Shown: positions 14,800-32,130 of the stretch, piece by piece
Layout of the letters: each line of letters begins with the position of its first letter
How positions within the stretch are numbered: position 1 is the first letter of the stretch
Source of the DNA: Bacteroidota bacterium
GTDB lineage: Bacteria > Bacteroidota > Bacteroidia > Chitinophagales > Chitinophagaceae
Assembly (NCBI GenBank): GCA_028876495.1
Contig: JAGWRO010000073.1
Coordinates: 1-32,589 of the forward strand
Reading direction: 5' to 3'
DNA: 32,589 nt
The notes under the pieces: model-generated
Database searches by the model: none
What the model was told of the DNA's origin: nothing
What the model saw: only the letters and a program-made list of their open reading frames with translations
Position numbers and translations under genes: made by a program

Positions 14800-17700
14800 T
14801 TGAAAATTAAAAATATAAAGTTGATGACGCGTCTTTTTCTTCCCCTGGTGTTTATGATTCTTTCTGCTCCCTGTTTTTCTCAGGCGAATTATTTTGTAAC
14901 CGATCCGCAGAAAAATTTTAAAGAGGCCGAAGATCTGTTTATGAAAGGAGAATACAGTCTTGCCTATCCCCTGCTTAAACCTTTGCTGGATAAGTATCCT
15001 GAAAATACCAAAAGCAGTCATGCCTATTTAAACCAGGACTTGGAATATTATTACGTCGTTTGTGAACTAAAACTAAACCAGCAGGTAGCCGAAGATGCAG
15101 CCAAAAGTTTTATAGATGCGGCCAACAACGAACCGAGGCAGCAACTAATGAGTTTCCATCTGGCACAATATTATTTTACCCAAAATGATTTTGCGCGCGC
15201 GGTGGTTTATTATGAAAGAGCCGGTTACAACAACCTGAGCAATGAGCAAATTGCTGATTCAAAATTTGAACTTGCTTATTCGTATTTTAAAACAGGACAA
15301 TACACAAGCGCCAAACCATTATTTGATGAAATACATCAGCTTCCTTCCAACAAGTATTATTATGACGCTAATTATTATTATGGTTTTTTAAGTTACCGCG
15401 ATCATGATTATAATAATGCTTTGGCCTCTTTTCAAAAAGTAGAATCTATTCCAAAATACCGCGGACTGGTGCCTTACTATATTGCGCAGATCTATTATTT
15501 CCAGGGAAACAAAGACCAGGCCTTGCGTTACGGCGAAAGCAAACTTGGTCAGGATGACATTTACAACAGGAAAGATTTGAATCTCCTAATGGGACAAATT
15601 TATTTTGAGAAAAAAGATTTTGCCAAAGCGCTGCCTTTACTGGAAGCCTATGTGCAGAGCAGCGATAAAGTTTCCAAAGAAGTAATGTACGAATTAAGCT
15701 ATTGTTATTACAATGCCAACGATGTACAAAAAGCAATAGATGGATTCAAACAATTGAGTAATGAAAAAGATTCTTTAGGCCAAAATTCAATGTACCTTTT
15801 GGGAGATTTGTATTTAAAAACCGGGCAAAAAGAAAATGCACGTAATGCATTTCTTTACAGTGCTGATAATAACAGCAACCTGAAACAGCAGGAAATCTCA
15901 CGATTCAATTATGCAAAACTTTCTTATGAACTGGGTTACCAGGATGTAGCATTAAGTTCAATGAATAAATTTCTTGATCTCTATCCTCAGTCTGTTTATG
16001 CCAATGAAGGAAAAGAGATTATTATTAATCTTTTGGCCAATACCAACAATTACGATCAGGCACTTTCATTATACCAATCGTTTGGGGAACCAACGCCAAC
16101 GATGAAGAAAATTTATCCGAAAATTCTTTTTGGGCGGGCTACAGAATATATCAATGGTCAGCAATTAAATGAAGCCGATGACCTCCTCACCAAAATAATC
16201 AACGACCCGAACGCCGGCCAGGTTTTACCTTTTGCTTATTTCTGGAAAGGAGAAGTTTCGTACAGGCTTAACCGTTATGATGAAGCGGTAAAATACACAA
16301 ACGAATACCTTCGATATGGCGGCATCCAGGGAGAAGCCAGCCCTACAGATGCAAAGTATATTCTCGGGTACAGCTACCTAAACCTTGAAAACTATTCCCA
16401 ATCGCTTGCCAATTTTAAGCAGGTAGCTCCGGTTGTTTCTCCACGATCTTCTGCACTTCAACAAGATGCCTATGTAAGAGCTGCCGATAGTTACTTCATG
16501 ATGAAGAATTACAGCACAGCCAAAACCATGTATCAAAATGTAATTAATGATGGATTGGCTCAAAGTGATTATGCACTATACCAGGTAGCACTGATAAATG
16601 GTATTAATAATCCTGCTGAAAAGATCAGGACATTTAATACGCTTACAGAACGATACCCTCAAAGCGACCTGGTATCAGAATCTTACATGCAGATCGCCAA
16701 TGCCTATATGGTCCAGGAAAAATTCAGGGATGCGATTCCGTATTTAAATAAAATCTTAAACATCAAATCAGCCGCAAGTCAATATCCCAAAGTTTATTTG
16801 AAATTGGGGCTTGCCAATTACAACCTTAACAACAACCAGGAAGCATTGCAGGATTATCAAAAGCTCGTAAGCCAATATCCGCAATCTGACGAAGCGAATG
16901 AAGCCCTTGATAATATGAAGAACATTTATGTGGAAATGGGAAAGCCTAATGATTATGTAGCCTTTGTACAAAAAACAGGAAAAGTGATCAGCATTTCAGA
17001 AGCAGATTCATTAACTTATGCAGCTGCAGAATTACAATTTACCAATAACGATTGTACTGCGGCCATCAATTCATTCAATAATTATCTCAGCAAATATCCC
17101 CAGGGCGCCTATATATTGAATGCTAACTTTTATAAAAGCGAATGTTATTCAAAAAATAAAGATTGGCAAAATGCTGTAACAGGTTACGAAGCCGTTTTAA
17201 ACGAAGGCACCAGCCCTTTTGCAGAAAGGTCTGCATTTGCTGCAGCAAGGATATTCTACTTTGAGCTAAAAGATTATCAACAATCAAAAACTTATTTTTC
17301 AAAATTGCTGGAACTGGCAACCACTCCTGAAAACCAGCTTGAAGCCTTGCGTGGCCTGGTTAGAAGTTACTATCAAACCAAAGATTTTGCCGAAGCCAAT
17401 AATATTGCCAAAGAATTACTTACTAAAAAAGGCATCAGTACGGATGATAAGGCCATCGCCAATCTGGTGCTCGGCAAATCGCTCCAGGTAAACAACCAGT
17501 GTGAAGACGCTATTAAAGCCTTCAAAGAAGTTTCGGCAGTTAATAAATCAGAGTGGGGTGCAGAAGCACGTTACGAAACAGCCAATTGTTATTACACGCT
17601 TAACCAACTCAAAATAGCTGAAAAAGCAGCGCTTGATGTAATAAAAGTTACCGGCTCTTACGATTATTGGGTGGCCAAAGCCTATATTTTATTAGGTGAT

Positions 17701-17871
17701 ATTTACCTGAAGGAAAATGATTATTTTAATGCAAAAGCGACGTATAAAAGTGTAGCGGATAATGCTACCATACCTGAATTAAAAAAAGAAGCCCAGGATA
17801 AGTTGAATGCTGCTATTGCACAAGAACAACAAAATTCAAAAGTAGAAACAACCCCTTCAGACAGTAAATAA
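14800..17871 (+). CDS. large periplasmic TPR-repeat protein
   Basis: The 1023-aa protein has a signal peptide (cleavage near CFSQA, residue 29). Almost all of the rest is tetratricopeptide repeats with the helix-turn-helix pattern of Tyr, Ala, Gly and Pro. Examples are FMKGEYSLAYPLLKPLLDKYPE near the start and DCTAAINSFNNYLSKYPQGAY further on. The recurring YP at helix ends is typical of the YbgF/BamD-like TPR class found in envelope assembly proteins. The reading frame starts at TTG (14800); an ATG 24 bp downstream (14824) also gives a good signal peptide and cannot be excluded. It is the first gene of a probable operon with a beta-barrel protein (26 bp) and an HU-like protein (43 bp). It is probably a periplasmic scaffold; the partner is unknown. 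Confidence 0.85.
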   Translation: MKIKNIKLMTRLFLPLVFMILSAPCFSQANYFVTDPQKNFKEAEDLFMKGEYSLAYPLLKPLLDKYPENTKSSHAYLNQDLEYYYVVCELKLNQQVAEDAAKSFIDAANNEPRQQLMSFHLAQYYFTQNDFARAVVYYERAGYNNLSNEQIADSKFELAYSYFKTGQYTSAKPLFDEIHQLPSNKYYYDANYYYGFLSYRDHDYNNALASFQKVESIPKYRGLVPYYIAQIYYFQGNKDQALRYGESKLGQDDIYNRKDLNLLMGQIYFEKKDFAKALPLLEAYVQSSDKVSKEVMYELSYCYYNANDVQKAIDGFKQLSNEKDSLGQNSMYLLGDLYLKTGQKENARNAFLYSADNNSNLKQQEISRFNYAKLSYELGYQDVALSSMNKFLDLYPQSVYANEGKEIIINLLANTNNYDQALSLYQSFGEPTPTMKKIYPKILFGRATEYINGQQLNEADDLLTKIINDPNAGQVLPFAYFWKGEVSYRLNRYDEAVKYTNEYLRYGGIQGEASPTDAKYILGYSYLNLENYSQSLANFKQVAPVVSPRSSALQQDAYVRAADSYFMMKNYSTAKTMYQNVINDGLAQSDYALYQVALINGINNPAEKIRTFNTLTERYPQSDLVSESYMQIANAYMVQEKFRDAIPYLNKILNIKSAASQYPKVYLKLGLANYNLNNNQEALQDYQKLVSQYPQSDEANEALDNMKNIYVEMGKPNDYVAFVQKTGKVISISEADSLTYAAAELQFTNNDCTAAINSFNNYLSKYPQGAYILNANFYKSECYSKNKDWQNAVTGYEAVLNEGTSPFAERSAFAAARIFYFELKDYQQSKTYFSKLLELATTPENQLEALRGLVRSYYQTKDFAEANNIAKELLTKKGISTDDKAIANLVLGKSLQVNNQCEDAIKAFKEVSAVNKSEWGAEARYETANCYYTLNQLKIAEKAALDVIKVTGSYDYWVAKAYILLGDIYLKENDYFNAKATYKSVADNATIPELKKEAQDKLNAAIAQEQQNSKVETTPSDSK

Positions 17872-25091: not shown

Positions 25092-26993
25092 ATGAAAAGA
25101 TCTTTTTACACAACTGCTTTTTTGTTAGTTATTTCTCCTGCCCTTTTGAAGGCACAGAAATTATACATGCCGCGAAACATTACCAACGCTTATAAAAATG
25201 GAACCCGCTCTCTGCAAGGACCTCCGGGGAAAAATTACTGGCAAAACGGCGGGAAATATGATATCAACGAAACGGTAACTCCGGAAACAAAAGTGGTATC
25301 AGGAGTTGAAAACATTGTGTATTCCAACAACAGCCCTGATACGCTGAAAGTTTTGGTGATCCGGTTTGTAAACAATGTTCATAAGCCTGAATCACCGCGA
25401 ACAGGGCAAACCAATGATAATTTTTTTACTACAGGATTAGATATTACTTCTTTTTCTGTAAACAACAAGGATTATAATGTGAATAGTAAAAGTTGGGGAA
25501 CCGTGGGAGTAGTAAGATTGAAAGAACCATTACTTCCCCATTCATCAGCAAACGTAAATATTTCGTGGAATTATCCTTTATCAAAACAAGATGGGCGTGA
25601 AGGCCAGGTTGATAGCGCCACTTTTTATGTAGCCTACAGTTATCCACGCATATCGGTTTATGATGATTACAATGGTTGGGATGTACTGCCACATAATGGC
25701 GGGCAGGAATTTTACAACGATTTCAACGATTACCAACTTGCAGTAAAGGTGCCAAAGAACTATGTGGTGTGGGCTACCGGTGATCTTCAAAATCCGGATG
25801 AAGTACTACAGCCGGCTATTGCAAAGCGTTTGAAGGATTCTTATACATCGGATAAGGTAATTCACATTGCAAACCTGAAAGAAATGCTGGAGGATAAAGT
25901 AACCCAACAAAATGATTGGAACACCTGGAAATTCAATGCCTATCACATTACCGATGTTTGCTATGCTGTAAGCAATCACTATGTGTGGGACGGGGCAAGT
26001 GTGGTTGTCGATCCAAAAACCAATCGTCGTTCAAGTGTTCAGGCAGCCTATAACGACACAGCCGCAGACTTCCATCATTCAGTAGAATTTGCACAAAACG
26101 CTCTGAAATTTTTCTCCACTCAATGGCCGGGCGTTCCTTATCCATTCCCTAAAATGACAGCCTTCCAGGGCCATGCAGACATGGAATACCCGATGATGGT
26201 GAATGATGCTACAGTTAGTGATACAAGGCGGTTCGGTAAGCAAGGTTTCAAATTTGCGCAAATGGTACAAGATCATGAAATAGCCCACACGTATTTTCCA
26301 TTTTATATGGGCATCAACGAAAAAAGATATGCGTTTATGGATGAAGGCTGGGCTACCACTTACGAATACCTGATAGGCCTGGAAGAAAACGGAAAAGCGC
26401 ATACAGATTCTGTTTATAAGATGTTCCGCATCAGCCGCTATATTCATGATCCTTCAACTGACGAAGACCAGCCGATCATTACCATGTCTAACCAGGAAAG
26501 TGGCGCCGGATATGGAAACAATTCTTACGGAAAAGCTTCTCTGAGTTATCTCGCTTTAAAAGATTATTTGGGAGATGCCACTTTTAAAAAAGCCCTTCAT
26601 TTTTATATGAATGCGTGGCATGGAAAACACCCGATTCCGTGGGATTATTTCAATTGCATGAGTACCGGTTCAGGAAAAAATTTAAACTGGTTTTTTACCA
26701 ACTGGTTTTTTACCAATAATTATATTGACCTCAAAATTGACACTGTAAAAAAAGATAAAGGGTTTTATATGGTAAACATAAAAAACGTGGGCGGCTTTGC
26801 CATTCCTTTTGATGTAAAAATTGTGTATGCAGACGGACAAACTGCTATAATTCACGAAACACCTGCTGTTTGGGAAAAAAATCAGAAAGAGCAGGTATTA
26901 AAGATTTCAACCAATAAAATTATAAAATCAGTAGCATTGGATGGTGGTATTTTTATGGATTATACCCCAGAGGATAATATTTGGAAACAATAA
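25092..26993 (+). CDS. M1 family metallopeptidase
   Basis: This 633-aa aminopeptidase-like protein has a signal peptide (MKRSFYTTAFLLVISPALLKA). The N-terminal beta domain (about 30-300) is followed by a substrate-recognition motif that departs from the usual GAMEN, reading GHADMEYPMM. The zinc site is HEIAH (His395, His399), with Glu418 in MDEGWATTYEY at the expected spacing. Ser/Thr-rich and Asn-rich C-terminal strands follow (up to about 633). Secreted M1 enzymes trim peptides; the site looks active. An upstream in-frame TTG (25083) is rejected because it overlaps the -7-like TACATTTG at 25078-25085 and the ATG at 25092 starts the signal peptide. A strong terminator follows the gene. Confidence 0.9.
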   Translation: MKRSFYTTAFLLVISPALLKAQKLYMPRNITNAYKNGTRSLQGPPGKNYWQNGGKYDINETVTPETKVVSGVENIVYSNNSPDTLKVLVIRFVNNVHKPESPRTGQTNDNFFTTGLDITSFSVNNKDYNVNSKSWGTVGVVRLKEPLLPHSSANVNISWNYPLSKQDGREGQVDSATFYVAYSYPRISVYDDYNGWDVLPHNGGQEFYNDFNDYQLAVKVPKNYVVWATGDLQNPDEVLQPAIAKRLKDSYTSDKVIHIANLKEMLEDKVTQQNDWNTWKFNAYHITDVCYAVSNHYVWDGASVVVDPKTNRRSSVQAAYNDTAADFHHSVEFAQNALKFFSTQWPGVPYPFPKMTAFQGHADMEYPMMVNDATVSDTRRFGKQGFKFAQMVQDHEIAHTYFPFYMGINEKRYAFMDEGWATTYEYLIGLEENGKAHTDSVYKMFRISRYIHDPSTDEDQPIITMSNQESGAGYGNNSYGKASLSYLALKDYLGDATFKKALHFYMNAWHGKHPIPWDYFNCMSTGSGKNLNWFFTNWFFTNNYIDLKIDTVKKDKGFYMVNIKNVGGFAIPFDVKIVYADGQTAIIHETPAVWEKNQKEQVLKISTNKIIKSVALDGGIFMDYTPEDNIWKQ

Positions 26994-27013
26994 TTAATTA
27001 ACATCAACATCTC

Positions 27014-27051
27014 ACAGGCGTGCATCAAAAATGCACGCCTGTTTTGCTTTT
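27014..27051 (+). terminator. strong intrinsic terminator
   Basis: ACAGGCGTGCAT (27014-27025), loop CAAAA, ATGCACGCCTGT (27031-27042) make a perfect 12-bp stem, followed by TTTGCTTTT. It ends the M1 peptidase transcript, 21 bp after its stop. Confidence 0.9.
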
Positions 27052-27260
27052 ACATTGATAGGGAATAAAAATCTTTACAATTTGTCGATTTACTGTTCTG
27101 GCCTCAATTGTTCTTAGGGCAACAACATGATTGAAAAAAATATATTTACTTTATACCTTTCATTAAAAGGATTTTAAGACATAAACCGATTCAAAAAAAA
27201 ATCACCCTTTTATAATAACTTTTAAATTATCTACATTAACTTCGCAGCCTATTTATAAAA
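27052..27260 (+). promoter_or_regulatory. promoter region of the thr operon
   Basis: No gene is seen here. A possible -7 element TAACTTCG (27237-27244) is one base from TAnnTTTG and lies 16 bp before the leader-peptide start; no good -33 box is present. The remainder is AT-rich with short imperfect palindromes only (for example CCTTT/AAAGG near 27157-27171). Confidence 0.4.
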
Positions 27261-27344
27261 ATGAAAAGACCCATTTCTTATATAACCCTTTCTGCATTTG
27301 CAACGCTTAGCATTCCTGCAATTACCATTACTACAACCCGTTAA
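27261..27344 (+). CDS. thrL: threonine operon leader peptide
   Basis: A 27-codon frame starts with ATG at 27261 and reads MKRPISYITLSAFATLSI then PAITITTTR before TAA. Thr occurs at positions 9, 15, 22, 24, 25 and 26 and Ile at 5, 8, 18, 21 and 23, so the last seven codons are Ile-Thr-Ile-Thr-Thr-Thr-Arg. This mirrors the Thr/Ile-rich thrL peptide of E. coli (MKRISTTITTTITITT), in which uncharged tRNA-Thr or tRNA-Ile stalls the ribosome and allows operon expression. The leader ends 91 bp before thrA. The composition and place make a regulatory role very likely; sequence alignment to E. coli beyond MKR and ITITT is not implied. Confidence 0.88.
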   Translation: MKRPISYITLSAFATLSIPAITITTTR

Positions 27345-27352
27345 GGGTTGTA
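27332..27352 (+). promoter_or_regulatory. thr leader hairpin (attenuator component)
   Basis: TACAACCC (27332-27339), loop GTTAA, GGGTTGTA (27345-27352) form a perfect 8-bp stem. Its 5' arm overlaps leader codons 24-27 and its loop contains the stop codon, so a ribosome at the Thr codons would prevent it forming. An alternative partial pairing joins AAGG...TAC (27343-27353) with GTACCTT (27385-27391). No clear stem with a T tract is seen before thrA, so how transcription or translation is switched is unresolved. Confidence 0.7.
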
Positions 27353-27435
27353 CATTTCCATATCATCTATTGGGCTTTCGCTGCGTACCTTCGGAAAAAA
27401 ATAATACCATCAATAAATTTAATAGTTAGAAAAAT

Positions 27436-29883
27436 ATGCGTGTTTTAAAATTTGGCGGCTCATCTGTAGCAAACGCTGAAAATATCAACAAGATCGTTTC
27501 TATTTTGGAAGATCGTTTGAAAAATGAGAAATTAATTGTAGTGGTATCTGCTTTAGGAGGCACGACTGATGCACTTTTAACTAGCGTGGTTCTTGCTTCA
27601 GAAGGAAAAGAAAAATACAAGGAAGAACTACAAAAAATTGAAAACCGCCACCTGGAAATGACCAAACAGTTGATTCCTGTAGCGCAGCAAAGCCGTGTAT
27701 TGAGCATGGTAAAACAACATTGTAACGAAATTGAAGATATTTGCAATGGTGTATTTTTATTGCAGGAACTTACTTCGAGAACCAAAGACAGGATAATGAG
27801 TTATGGAGAATTATTATCCTCACAGATTATTGCCGCAAAATTTGAATCTACCGGGTTTAAAAATAAATGGATAGACGCCAGGAAAATAATTATCACCAAT
27901 TCCAACTTCGAAAACGCAGTAGTAAATTTCGATGTTTCCAACCCAAAAATTCATTCATGCTTTCATGATGCTGAAGAGTCCTTCTTCATTGTTCCGGGCT
28001 TCATTTCATCTGACAAAAATGGCGTAACCACTACATTAGGCAGAGGTGGATCTGATTATACAGCTTCCGTCATTGCTGCCGCAGTTGATGCTACCGCTCT
28101 TGAAATCTGGACGGATGTAAGCGGCATGATGACTGCGGATCCGCGATTGGTATCCAACGCTAAAATAATTCCAAATGTTTTGTATCGCGAAGCAATGGAG
28201 CTTTCGCATTTTGGGGCCAAAGTACTTTACCCGCCTACTATTCAGCCAGTGATGAGAAAAAATATTCCGGTTTGGGTGAAGAGCACTTTCGCGCCGGAAC
28301 ATCATGGAACTTTAATTGAAAATACTTCAGAAAAAAAAACCACAAGCAGTGTGCGGGGTATTTCAAGCATTAATAAAATAGCATTGCTAAGTCTCGAAGG
28401 AAGCGGAATGGCCGGTGTGCCCGGTTTCTCAAAAAGATTATTTGAAACCTTAGCAAACGAACAAATTAATGTGATTTTGATTACGCAAAGTTCTTCAGAA
28501 CATTCGATTTGTGTGGGTATTGAAGAAGCCGCTGCTGAAAAAGCAAAATTAGCTGTGGATGCTGCTTTTGCTTTAGAAATTGAAAGGCTTGTGGTTGAAC
28601 CGTTAATCGTGGAAAAAGATTTGGCGATCATTGCATTGGTTGGCGATAAAATGAAAAGCCATCCGGGTATCAGCGGAAAAATGTTCAGTGCTTTAGGAAG
28701 AAACGGGATCAATGTTAGGGCTATTTCACAAGGATCTTCAGAAAGAAATATTTCGGCAGTCATCTCTACCAATGATGTAAAAAAAGCAGTCAATGTACTG
28801 CATGAAGATTTTTTTGAAACCACTTATAAGCAGGTAAATTTATTTGTAGCCGGCGTAGGAAATGTAGGTTCACGGCTACTATCACAATTATTGCAACAAC
28901 AAAGTTATCTTCAAAAAAATCTGCGTTTATCCGTAAGAGTTGTAGGCATTGCCAACAGCAGGAAGATGTTATTTAATAACAATGGAATTGATTTGGAAAA
29001 TTGGAAAGAACTTTTGCAGGAAGGCGAGAAAATGAACCTTTCTGAATTTGTAAATACCATCAAATCAAAGAATCTTCGCAATTCGGTTTTTGCGGATGTA
29101 ACCGCCAACCAAGATGTGGCAAAACACTATGCTGAAATTCTCGAAAAAAGTGTTTCAGTAGTGGCCTGCAACAAAATTGCTGCGTCTTCTTCTTACAGTT
29201 ATTATGAAAAATTAAAGAATCTTGCACGTGAATTTAACGTACATTATCTTTTTGAAACCAATGTGGGTGCAGGTTTGCCCGTTATCGGCACTTTAAACGA
29301 CCTTTTGCTCAGCGGTGATAAGGTAAATAAAATTGAGGCAGTGCTAAGCGGCACATTAAACTTTGTTTTCAACAATTACGACGGCAAAAAAACATTTGCA
29401 AAAGTGGTTAAAGAAGCTCAGGATGAAGGTTTTACAGAACCCGACCCACGTCTTGATTTGAGCGGAGTGGATGTAGTAAGAAAGATCATGATACTTGCCC
29501 GCGAATCCGGTGAAAAAATTGACATGGAAGACATTACCAACAATTCCTTTATGCCTGAAGAATGTATGCAAGGCTCTGTTGAGGATTTTTATAAATGCAT
29601 GGAAAAGTATGAAGCCCATTTCAAAAGCATTTTGGATGAAGCGAACAAAGCCGGAAAGAAATTAAAATTTGTAGCTAATTATGAAAATGGAAAAGCGAGT
29701 GTTGGTTTACAACAAGTAGATTCAAGTCACGACTTTTACCATCTTTACGGGAAAGATAACGTAGTGGTTTTTTACACCAACCGTTACACCGGGCAACCAT
29801 TGGTGGTAAAAGGTGCAGGTGCCGGCGCAGAAGTAACCGCTTCCGGCGTGTTTGCTGATATCATCAGGGCGGTAAGGATCTAA
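27436..29883 (+). CDS. thrA: bifunctional aspartate kinase / homoserine dehydrogenase I
   Basis: At 815 aa this is the usual fused length. The N-terminal aspartokinase starts with KFGGSSVA (5-12) and phosphorylates aspartate. Two ACT domains follow, LSLEGSGMAG...ITQSSSEHSICV and LVGDKMKSHPGISGKMF...SQGSSERNISAV, in the ThrA pattern of threonine-sensitive feedback control. The homoserine dehydrogenase part begins with the NAD(P) motif VAGVGNVGS (about 468-476) and has GTLNFVFNNYDG and EAQDEGFTEPDPRLDLSG, the catalytic-lysine and substrate region. It supplies aspartyl phosphate and homoserine to threonine and, through shared steps, to methionine and lysine. thrB follows after 10 bp. Expression is probably controlled by the leader at 27261-27352. 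Confidence 0.97.
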   Translation: MRVLKFGGSSVANAENINKIVSILEDRLKNEKLIVVVSALGGTTDALLTSVVLASEGKEKYKEELQKIENRHLEMTKQLIPVAQQSRVLSMVKQHCNEIEDICNGVFLLQELTSRTKDRIMSYGELLSSQIIAAKFESTGFKNKWIDARKIIITNSNFENAVVNFDVSNPKIHSCFHDAEESFFIVPGFISSDKNGVTTTLGRGGSDYTASVIAAAVDATALEIWTDVSGMMTADPRLVSNAKIIPNVLYREAMELSHFGAKVLYPPTIQPVMRKNIPVWVKSTFAPEHHGTLIENTSEKKTTSSVRGISSINKIALLSLEGSGMAGVPGFSKRLFETLANEQINVILITQSSSEHSICVGIEEAAAEKAKLAVDAAFALEIERLVVEPLIVEKDLAIIALVGDKMKSHPGISGKMFSALGRNGINVRAISQGSSERNISAVISTNDVKKAVNVLHEDFFETTYKQVNLFVAGVGNVGSRLLSQLLQQQSYLQKNLRLSVRVVGIANSRKMLFNNNGIDLENWKELLQEGEKMNLSEFVNTIKSKNLRNSVFADVTANQDVAKHYAEILEKSVSVVACNKIAASSSYSYYEKLKNLAREFNVHYLFETNVGAGLPVIGTLNDLLLSGDKVNKIEAVLSGTLNFVFNNYDGKKTFAKVVKEAQDEGFTEPDPRLDLSGVDVVRKIMILARESGEKIDMEDITNNSFMPEECMQGSVEDFYKCMEKYEAHFKSILDEANKAGKKLKFVANYENGKASVGLQQVDSSHDFYHLYGKDNVVVFYTNRYTGQPLVVKGAGAGAEVTASGVFADIIRAVRI

Positions 29884-29893
29884 AAAAATAACA

Positions 29894-30820
29894 ATGAAAA
29901 AAATAAAAGTTTTGGCTCCTGCAACGATCGCGAATTTGGTTTGCGGTTTCGATATTCTTGGAATGGCATTGAAAGCGCCGTTTGATGAAATGACACTTTC
30001 TTTAACCGATGAGCCTGGAATTGTTATAAAACACACAGACGAATACAACTTGCCTGAAGAACCTGAGAAAAACGTTTCAGGCGCCGCCTTACTCGCTTTG
30101 ATGGAAGAATTTAAAAAACCGGTTGGTTTTCATTTAACAATTCATAAGCATATAAAACCCGGAAGTGGCTTGGGTTCCAGCGCTGCAAGTTCAGCAGGCG
30201 CTGTTGTTGCCGCCAACCATTTATTGGGAAATATTTTTTCAAATGAGGACCTGGTGCGCTTTGCCATGAACGGCGAAAAAATTGCCGGTGGCGTAAAACA
30301 TGCAGACAATGTTTCGCCCTGCATTTATGGTGGCGTTACTTTAATACGTTCTATTTTTCCTTTGGATATTATTCCGCTCAATGTCCCTGATCTTTTTATA
30401 ACCATCGTTCATCCGCAAATAGAAGTGCGTACTTCTGATTCACGGCAAATTTTACGCAAAGAAGTTCAGTTAAAAAATGCCATTAAACAATGGGGCAACA
30501 TAGGCGGATTGATCATGGGTTTTATGAAAAACGATTTTGATTTGATCGGCCGTTCAATGGAAGATGTAATTATTGAACCGGTGCGAAGTATTTTGATTCC
30601 GGGCTTTGATGAAGTCAAATTAAAATGTAAAGAAGCGGGAAGTATCGGCGGTGGAATTTCAGGTTCAGGGCCATCCATTTTTATGTTGAGTAAAGATGAA
30701 GAAACTGCCAATAAGATTGAAGGGATCATGAAAGATATTTATGAAAAAATCGAGGTAGATTATAAAACGTATGTAACAGCCATCAACACTGAAGGCGTAA
30801 AAATTGTGGAAGCACAGTAA
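29894..30820 (+). CDS. thrB: homoserine kinase (GHMP family)
   Basis: The 308-aa kinase converts L-homoserine to O-phosphohomoserine with ATP. The GHMP ATP-binding motif KPGSGLGSSAASSAGAVV is at about 88-105, an N-terminal substrate motif reads CGFDILGMAL, and the C-terminal loop is GGGISGSGPSIFML (about 252-265). This is the canonical family layout. The ATG at 29894 follows the thrA stop by 10 bp and the thrC start is 11 bp after its own stop, so the three genes form one operon. Confidence 0.97.
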   Translation: MKKIKVLAPATIANLVCGFDILGMALKAPFDEMTLSLTDEPGIVIKHTDEYNLPEEPEKNVSGAALLALMEEFKKPVGFHLTIHKHIKPGSGLGSSAASSAGAVVAANHLLGNIFSNEDLVRFAMNGEKIAGGVKHADNVSPCIYGGVTLIRSIFPLDIIPLNVPDLFITIVHPQIEVRTSDSRQILRKEVQLKNAIKQWGNIGGLIMGFMKNDFDLIGRSMEDVIIEPVRSILIPGFDEVKLKCKEAGSIGGGISGSGPSIFMLSKDEETANKIEGIMKDIYEKIEVDYKTYVTAINTEGVKIVEAQ

Positions 30821-30831
30821 ACGAACAAAGA

Positions 30832-32130
30832 ATGAAGTATTTTAGTCTGAATAAAACGGCTCCTGTTGCCACTTTCAAAGAAGCCACCATTAAGGGTTTG
30901 GCGCCTGATAAAGGTTTGTATTTTCCGGAAATTATTCCGAAACACGAACCCGGTTTTTATGTGGATATTCAAAAATTTTCTAACGAAGAAATTGCTTTTA
31001 AAATCATTCAACCATTTATTGGAGATGAAATTCCTGTGGCTGAATTAAAAAGAATTGTTACTGAAACGATCAATTTCGAAATTCCTTTAAAAACAATAAC
31101 AGATACTATTTCTTCATTAGAATTGTACCACGGTCCTACCCTTGCCTTTAAAGATGTTGGCGCAAGATTTATGAGCCGATGCCTCGGATATTTTGTAAAA
31201 AACAACGATAAAAAAATAACTGTATTGGTCGCCACTTCCGGCGATACAGGCGGGGCGGTTGCCAATGGTTTTTACAATGTTGACGGCGTTGAAGTAGTGA
31301 TTTTATATCCTTCCGGCAAGGTGAGCAGTGTTCAGGAAAAGCAATTAGTCACCTTAGGCAACAATATTCACGCGATAGAAGTAAAAGGAAATTTTGACGA
31401 TTGCCAGCAAATGGTGAAGCAGGCATTTTCGGATAAATATTTAAACGAAAAATTATTTCTTACCTCTGCCAATTCGATCAATGTGGCGCGTTGGTTGCCA
31501 CAACAGTTTTATTATTTATTTGCCTGGAAACAATGGACGGATAAAAACCATCCACCGGTGATCAGCGTGCCGAGCGGAAATTTTGGAAATATTTGTGCAG
31601 GAATTTTAGCGCATGTTTCAGGATTACCTGTGCAACATTTTATTGCTGCGTGCAATGCCAATAAAGTAGTTCCTGATTTTTTATCTACTGAAAAATATGA
31701 ACCGAAAAAAGCCATCGCTACCATTTCAAATGCAATGGACGTAGGCGATCCAAGTAATTTTGTAAGAATACTTGAATTATTCCATCATCAATTTGCCGAA
31801 CTAAAAAATACGCTCAGCAGCCTAAGCATTTCTGATGATGAAACAAGAAAAACGATAAAAGAAGTTTTTGAGAAAGAAAATTATTTATTAGATCCTCACG
31901 GCGCTGTGGCGTATCTCGCTTTGCAAAATTATTTACAAGAGCATCCCCAACAGAAAGGTTACCTCCTGGAAACCGCGCATCCGGTAAAATTTTATGACGT
32001 AGTAGAACCGATAATTCAGCAAAAAATTCCAATCCCCGAAAGTATTGAAGGCATTTTATCAAAAGAAAAATTAAGTACTGTAATGGAACCGGGCTTTGAA
32101 AACTTGAAAGAGTTTTTATTGAGCAGATAA
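30832..32130 (+). CDS. thrC: threonine synthase (PLP-dependent)
   Basis: The 432-aa enzyme catalyses the last step, O-phosphohomoserine to L-threonine. The PLP lysine is Lys107 in HGPTLAFKDVGARF. The glycine-rich phosphate-binding loop is ATSGDTGGAV, and the later motifs SANSINVARWLPQ and VPSGNFGNICAG are diagnostic of threonine synthase, with CxxxxK-type substrate contacts nearby (ACNANK). The N-terminus (MKYFSLN) and the length are normal. It is the last gene of the thr operon; 147 bp follow before the next gene. Confidence 0.97.
   Translation: MKYFSLNKTAPVATFKEATIKGLAPDKGLYFPEIIPKHEPGFYVDIQKFSNEEIAFKIIQPFIGDEIPVAELKRIVTETINFEIPLKTITDTISSLELYHGPTLAFKDVGARFMSRCLGYFVKNNDKKITVLVATSGDTGGAVANGFYNVDGVEVVILYPSGKVSSVQEKQLVTLGNNIHAIEVKGNFDDCQQMVKQAFSDKYLNEKLFLTSANSINVARWLPQQFYYLFAWKQWTDKNHPPVISVPSGNFGNICAGILAHVSGLPVQHFIAACNANKVVPDFLSTEKYEPKKAIATISNAMDVGDPSNFVRILELFHHQFAELKNTLSSLSISDDETRKTIKEVFEKENYLLDPHGAVAYLALQNYLQEHPQQKGYLLETAHPVKFYDVVEPIIQQKIPIPESIEGILSKEKLSTVMEPGFENLKEFLLSR

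Follow-up and report, generated by a model that had tools for sequence, protein, structure and literature searches.

The threonine operon (thrABC) of a member of the family Chitinophagaceae (Bacteroidota bacterium, GCA_028876495.1) is preceded by a short open reading frame (ORF) that ends in threonine and isoleucine codons, and by a hairpin, P1, which holds the stop codon of this ORF in its loop. The presence of this leader and its hairpin is confirmed in the window, that is, the whole stretch of 32,589 nucleotides of contig JAGWRO010000073.1 (forward strand) that was analyzed. The element is probably (at a probability of about 0.65) a leader-peptide attenuator of thrABC, of the same kind as thrL, which would sense the supply of threonine and isoleucine, and would have an output other than the classical terminator. 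At the level of the sequence, it is the comparison with relatives, and not the single genome, that establishes the leader and the hairpin, and this comparison shows an element composed of the leader ORF, the Thr/Ile block, P1, whose loop holds the stop codon in most cases, a linker in which an AUAU motif keeps its spacing, and two further hairpins, P2 and P3 (Table 1).

In the enteric bacteria, thrL is a short ORF with many Thr and Ile codons, which is located before a fused thrA gene, with a hairpin extending over the end of the ORF and its stop codon, and leader-peptide attenuation, as presented in the textbooks, combines a terminator with an antiterminator. The element described here resembles thrL in the ORF of Thr/Ile codons just upstream of a fused thrA, in the thrABC gene order, and in the hairpin over the end of the leader and its stop codon, but differs from it (Rfam Thr_leader) in that neither a T-tract terminator hairpin nor an antiterminator pairing was found. 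To our knowledge, the module formed by AUAU, P2, and P3 is not a feature of thrL. No Rfam family, Thr_leader included, matches the window at the gathering score, and none of the four matches at E <= 10 in the region 26990-27500 is a leader family. The parallel with the thrL leader peptide that was drawn in the preliminary description is supported by the recurrence of the ORF, the Thr/Ile codons, and the compensatory changes in the hairpin.

Table 1. Features of the thr leader region and of the operon that follows it (positions in the window).
Feature	Position	Strand	Details
Strong intrinsic terminator behind the upstream M1-peptidase gene	27014..27042	+	12-pair stem, then TTTGCTTTTA
Candidate Bacteroidota -7 box	27237..27244	+	TAACTTCG; one mismatch to TAnnTTTG
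Leader ORF, 27 codons	27261..27344	+	MKRPISYITLSAFATLSIPAITITTTR; stop codon TAA at 27342-27344
Thr/Ile control codons (Ile-Thr-Ile-Thr-Thr-Thr)	27321..27338	+	Thr/Ile conservation in 180 leaders
Hairpin P1, 8 bp	27332..27352	+	5' arm formed by the last Thr codons, loop by the stop codon
G-poor linker	27353..27372	+	CATAT at 27359-27363; distances to P1 and P2 nearly constant
Small hairpin P2	27373..27382	+	GGC-TTTC-GCT; covariation of the fourth pair in relatives
Place of hairpin P3	27383..27405	+	Marginal in the window (CC-TTC-GG at 27388-27394)
thrA, fused aspartate kinase/homoserine dehydrogenase	27436..29883	+	NF006959, 1048.8 bits (cut-off 726)
thrB, homoserine kinase	29894..30820	+	TIGR00191, 220.9 bits (cut-off 168.25)
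thrC, threonine synthase	30832..32130	+	TIGR00260, 292.8 bits (cut-off 167.1)

The 27-codon ORF ending in Ile-Thr-Ile-Thr-Thr-Thr-Arg that had been claimed before thrA is present (ITITTTR*), with its stop codon 91 nt 5' of thrA, and, as in a leader-peptide attenuator, a biosynthetic operon is thus preceded by a short ORF whose codon block specifies the end product. When the Thr frequency of the 16 ORFs of the window is taken as the reference, the probability of four Thr in the last seven residues is approximately 3e-4, for a stretch of seven that was picked post hoc, and that of six Thr in all 27 residues is approximately 3e-3. In 180 leaders, Thr and Ile together make up 73-100% of the residues at each codon from -7 to 0, where 0 is the last codon of the block, and the ends of the peptides differ among the relatives (TTTR, TTTL, TTTP, TTTPLG, TTTPFGV, TTTLWGC, and ITTRKG), with the stem being retained. 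It is from the codons only that we infer a response of the thr leader to threonine. Many of the leader peptides also have a stretch resembling His-Ile-Ile/Thr-Ser-Ser ahead of the Thr block, at codons of approximately -20 to -15.

The gene upstream of the leader encodes an M1 peptidase (Pfam PF01433), and the terminator behind it lies outside the leader, and is given here as context only. The candidate -7 box, compared with the consensus TAnnTTTG presented in PMC9723704, is found 16 nt 5' of the leader ATG. Of the 110 leaders tested, 63 have the pattern TAnnTTYR within 42 nt upstream of their ATG, in comparison with 14.7% of the shuffles, and inspection by eye revealed no clear -33 box before the leader. 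Given the recurrence of the -7-like box, transcription probably begins a short distance upstream of the leader, which would imply a very short 5' UTR if the candidate box is used.

Hairpin P1 had been described as a perfect 8-bp stem, with one arm on the last Thr codons and the stop codon in the loop, and this was verified, given that its arms, TACAACCC (27332-27339) and GGGTTGTA (27345-27352), form eight Watson-Crick pairs around the loop GTTAA (27340-27344), which includes the leader stop codon. In a single genome, this hairpin is only suggestive, because shuffling the 392-nt intergenic region 500 times yields a perfect 8-bp stem in 42 cases, and the stretch 27325-27440 folds no more stably than its shuffled versions (z -0.62). 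In the 80 named thrA loci, which are the best 80 of 584 by protein similarity, a Thr-rich ORF (at least four Thr in the last 12 codons) is found upstream of thrA in 55, versus 66 of 1600 shuffled regions, and 47 of these 55 ORFs have a stem of at least five Watson-Crick pairs at their last Thr codon, versus the 4.8 expected from shuffled tails. The named loci that bear the leader include Chitinophagaceae, Flavobacteriaceae, Chryseobacterium, and Cloacibacterium.

A larger set was obtained from 230 regions, of which 43 were dropped, either as duplicates or because the script found no stem at the Thr codons (L017, which has a leader by eye, is among them). The 187 loci retained were selected for a stem near the Thr codons, and 180 of them also for an anchor resembling ATA[TC], so that the conservation of these two features, together with part of the P1 covariation, is circular, while the P1 test on the named loci, the fourth pair of P2, and P3 are free of this selection. 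The script took the wrong frame in five of the 187 (0 Thr), and all the counts refer to loci, with kinship being ignored, rather than to independent events.

Across the 187 loci, 43 distinct pairs of P1 arms are found, and the in-frame stop codon lies within the P1 loop in 144. The covariation expected of the hairpin is borne out at the inner pairs, where the changes in 150 sequences are compensatory, with CG in 133 and TA in 17 at pair j=1, AT in 122, TA in 11, and GT in 11 at j=3, and CG in 18 and GC in three at j=-3. It is hardly seen at the outer pairs (j=4 to 6), which have little or no covariation, and the conserved core is shorter than the 8-bp stem. A hairpin over the control and stop codons, typical of a leader-peptide attenuator, is thus maintained by compensatory change, at the inner pairs only. 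The simple count of pairs gives a less clear picture in a small MAFFT alignment, which misplaces the arms of some rows, as 82.3% of the cells are paired (80.5% when shuffled), and one pair has a two-sided change. Three loci that belong to one other family (L299, L309, and L315) have, by eye, a P1 of reversed G/C polarity (ACGGG-stop-CCCGT) with the stop codon still inside the loop, which indicates that P1 is kept as a structure across families.

Behind P1 lies the linker, in which G represents 3% of the bases (136 sequences), and the CATAT motif keeps a distance of 13 nt to the P1 anchor in 139 of the 180 leaders. The spacing between the start of CATAT and P2 is 13-14 nt in 130 of 155 cases, and the P2 frame, GGC...GCY, is present in 136 of the 180 leaders, with G-GGC/GCY-G being conserved around P2. 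The fourth pair of P2 is Watson-Crick in 78 of 134 sequences (UA in 36, CG in 19, AU in 18, and GC in five), versus 39.2 +/- 4.8 when permuted, and is absent in the window itself (T/C), while the fifth pair is not significant (10/29 vs 7.4). In the case of the weaker P3, whose loop is centered approximately 11 nt after P2, the own sequences outperform half-and-half chimeras (z 8.2, 127 sequences), and no signal of this type is found from +16 on in these 127 sequences. A T-rich stretch lies behind the place of P3, with T at 38-59% from +18 to +25 after P2. In many loci of the Flavobacteriaceae, another hairpin, without a T-tract, was seen by eye after the linker. A possible CCA/UGG hairpin within the linker was discarded on inspection by eye, since several sequences leave too short a loop for it.

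In 27 tests of own versus swapped partners, which set the P1 3' arm, the linker, or P2 against either the leader or the sequence extending to thrA, no convincing competing or antiterminator pairing was found (best z -2.2), while the same test recovers the controls P1 (z -4.6) and P2 (z -6.0). The value of z -2.2, for the pairing of P2 with the leader upstream, was taken as chance, and the best of the downstream tests reaches z -1.8. The linker and P2 windows pair worse with their own downstream region than with those of others (z +2.0 to +3.6, four windows), and the complementarity of the linker to the thrA start shows no coevolution (z +0.4). The mutually exclusive antiterminator pairing of a classical attenuator is thus lacking among the pairings tested, and, as no pairing couples P1 to P2 or P3, the link from the position of the ribosome to the output is missing.

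The near-constant spacing, the conserved AUAU, the G-GGC/GCY-G around P2, and the lack of an alternative pairing would also be consistent with P1, the linker, and P2 forming the binding site of a trans-acting factor (a protein or a tRNA), with the Thr-rich ORF serving only to tune or shield this site. This interpretation is very improbable, given that the sequence, and even the polarity, of P1 changes while its loop retains the stop codon and the Thr codons still precede it, which indicates the ribosome, rather than a trans-acting factor, as the reader of P1.

The absence of a T-tract terminator before thrA, as claimed for this DNA, holds in the window and in most of the group. The scan of 26900-27500 found no terminator-like site between the leader ORF and thrA, and recovered only that at 27014-27042; the intrinsic terminator that a classical attenuator of the thrL or trpL type has between the leader and the first gene was therefore not found. 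Under the definition adopted here (a hairpin of dG <= -6 and at least five T in eight, with the energies being taken from our own scan), a terminator-like hairpin with a T-tract lies downstream of P1 in 19 of the 187 thr leaders (L039, L172, L191, L214, and L229, for example), and in two of them at dG <= -10, whereas, in the same family, a terminator is found upstream of hisG in 22 of 23 regions (21 at dG <= -10) and upstream of ilvD in 16 of 30 (eight at dG <= -10), the thr set comprising Chitinophagaceae, Flavobacteriaceae, and a few others, and the his and ilv control sets being small and unfiltered for leaders.

When P1 itself is admitted as the terminator hairpin, 66 of the 187 thr leaders pass, 20 of them at dG <= -10, which leaves room for a degenerate terminator at P1. 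Classical attenuation, in which P1, or P3 with the U-rich stretch, would terminate transcription on full translation of the leader, and would be prevented from doing so by stalled ribosomes, would account for these loci, for the 19 that pass downstream of P1, and for the T-rich stretch behind P3, and would be in line with the use of intrinsic terminators by the his, ilv, and trp leaders of the family. It nevertheless appears unlikely, considering the scarcity of strong hairpins downstream of P1 in comparison with hisG, the RNA downstream of P1, which is no more stable than its shuffles (mean z -0.02, n=187), and the absence of a coevolving antiterminator pairing in the tests.

An ORF with a run of His codons is found in 20 of the 23 hisG loci (L247-L250, L252-L259, and L261-L268), and one with a run of Ile/Val codons in eight of the 30 ilvD loci (L272-L274, L276-L278, L283, and L284), in which a T-tract terminator was seen by eye. 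Most of the short his and ilv ORFs of the family are then followed by intrinsic terminators. In the genome under study, the scan detected neither a his nor an ilv leader ORF (L251, L288, and L294), so that the contrast in the terminators is with the family, and not within this genome. In one other genome of the family, a trp leader of the classical plan by eye, in which a run of WWW codons is accompanied by a terminator (L242, at approximately 1500-1640), is followed by an ORF which we take to be trpE. The thr leader is similar to Bacteroid-trp (RF01692), which is described in PMC2864571, and to the his and ilv leaders of the family, in that all of these precede amino-acid operons within one phylum and carry codons for the amino acid under regulation, but the Bacteroid-trp, his, and ilv leaders have intrinsic terminators, unlike the thr leader analyzed here. 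RF01692 has no match in the genome under study, and matches one of 60 genomes of the family, below the cut-off (L242). In one other family, three loci (L308, L311, and L319) have Thr-rich leaders with strong terminators, as judged by eye, upstream of thrA, which indicates that thr attenuation in the class can also be classical, and so two plans of thr attenuator coexist in the class.

In a leader-peptide attenuator of the thrL kind, which is the preferred reading, the translating ribosome would report the supply of Thr (and Ile) through its position relative to P1. When Thr-tRNA is plentiful, the ribosome would reach the stop codon and be released, and when it is short, the ribosome would stall in the codon block and alter whether, or when, P1 folds behind the RNA polymerase. 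That the ribosome reads P1 is suggested by the codon content, by the position of the ORF, and by the location of the stop codon within the loop. As the sequence of P1 varies, its structure is kept across families, and there was no sign of strand exchange, P1 probably works on its own as a hairpin, for instance for pausing or synchronization, like the 1:2 hairpin of the enteric leaders. This role in pausing is suggested by the AUAU element, which lies about where a hairpin-stabilized pause would sit, that is, approximately at the pause distance behind P1 in the geometry of the his pause. Any premature stop may depend on a weak terminator made up of P2, P3, and the U-rich stretch, or on Rho, whose RNA-binding domain is encoded in the same genome (PF07497, 122 bits), and neither a strong T-tract hairpin nor a competing antiterminator would be used.

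More tentatively, and at somewhat less than even odds, the element may belong to a class of amino-acid leaders, common in the Chitinophagaceae and Flavobacteriaceae, in which the position of the ribosome would be read without a terminator/antiterminator switch. The stop codon would be kept in the loop of a hairpin that is conserved as a structure, and an AUAU-P2-P3 module of fixed geometry would be read by the RNA polymerase, in the form of a hairpin-stabilized pause that feeds Rho or a weak terminator, or by some other factor.

The lack of a classical terminator, together with the distance between the leader stop codon and thrA, would also be compatible with translational attenuation, in which the translation of the leader would gate the thrA start or the stability of the mRNA, followed by Rho termination inside thrA. 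There is a precedent in toiL-topAI of E. coli, where a uORF senses the stalling of the ribosome, and a translation block is accompanied by intragenic termination that is Rho-dependent, rather than intrinsic (PMC12121999). However, toiL senses antibiotics by means of a structure that occludes the ribosome-binding site, according to the same source, and no such structure was found here. The stretch from P2 to thrA is A/T-rich (72%), and the linker, as seen above, lacks a coevolving complementarity to the thrA start, which makes this translational route quite unlikely.

With regard to the distribution of the element, a covariance model (R1) built from 31 leaders has a match in 182 of 294 genomes of the family, in 63 of 92 genera, with 112 of the 294 having none, and has one match in the genome under study. 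In the 130 loci taken from the matches (the 30 best and 100 from the 182 matching genomes), a thrA start lies downstream of the element in 127, the exceptions being L144, L213, and L218. Six genomes have two matches each. The six non-thr matches (L332, L333, and L335-L338) look unrelated by eye, with ORF tables for L333 and L335 only, and in genome G237, the weaker of the two matches, L334, is the thr leader. A pattern search of the genome under study for copies of the module found two matches besides that at thrA (L243 and L244), and the backwards control found one. The first of these was rejected as a second copy, as it lies antisense within an ORF that is presumably ribosomal protein S14, while L244 is a pattern match at 16893-16917, on the minus strand, opposite the ORF 14800-17871.

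The recurrence of the leader in relatives, on which the preliminary description had staked its reading, was found in part of the loci inspected by eye, being present in 15 of the 22 loci L003-L024, and lacking in L010, L011, L015, and L022-L024. In L012, a remnant ORF and a hairpin-like CCC-GAAA-GGG are found at 1376-1412 before thrA, with no Thr codons. The leader was not found in 25 of the 80 named loci by the ORF-only test, and undetected by the script in 22 of the 80, with two of the latter (L076 and L080) being leader-like by eye. An ilvA-like gene lies directly upstream of thrA in seven of these 22 loci (L046, L049, L051, L053, L060, L065, and L100), and was confirmed as ilvA by family in L049 and L100, while ilvA (threonine ammonia-lyase) is also found directly upstream of thrA in L010 (by family) and L011 (by motif). 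In part of the cases, then, the absence of the leader accompanies a change in the operon, which suggests that the thrA genes with ilvA upstream came under the control of another operon. In the sample of the class, a fused thrA was found at E <= 1e-100 in only 29 of 119 genomes, and the wider distribution is thus thinly sampled.

In Flavobacterium psychrophilum, strong clues were found for leader-peptide attenuation upstream of amino-acid biosynthesis operons (PMC9723704); the word threonine does not appear in the main text of that study, although thrA may still be included in its list. Small ORFs in the 5' UTRs of B. thetaiotaomicron are the subject of PMC7366714. In 2010, the leader peptide systems known to the authors of PMC2965389 were only from the Proteobacteria and Actinobacteria, and a survey of attenuation from the same year (doi 10.1134/S0026893310010164) is cited in PMC4833913. 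By title and the opening of the abstract, no description of a thr leader in the Bacteroidota was found among the matches listed, and no priority can be claimed.

The thr operon of many Chitinophagaceae and Flavobacteriaceae thus keeps a covarying sensor half, mostly without a classical terminator, while the his leaders retain theirs. The covariance model R1 could seed an RNA family. If the response to threonine is real, a short regulatory ORF, of a type easily overlooked by gene finders, would stand before a central pathway in many genomes, and these leaders would represent a natural comparison for how, in the absence of a terminator, the position of the ribosome can be relayed to the RNA polymerase or the next ORF.
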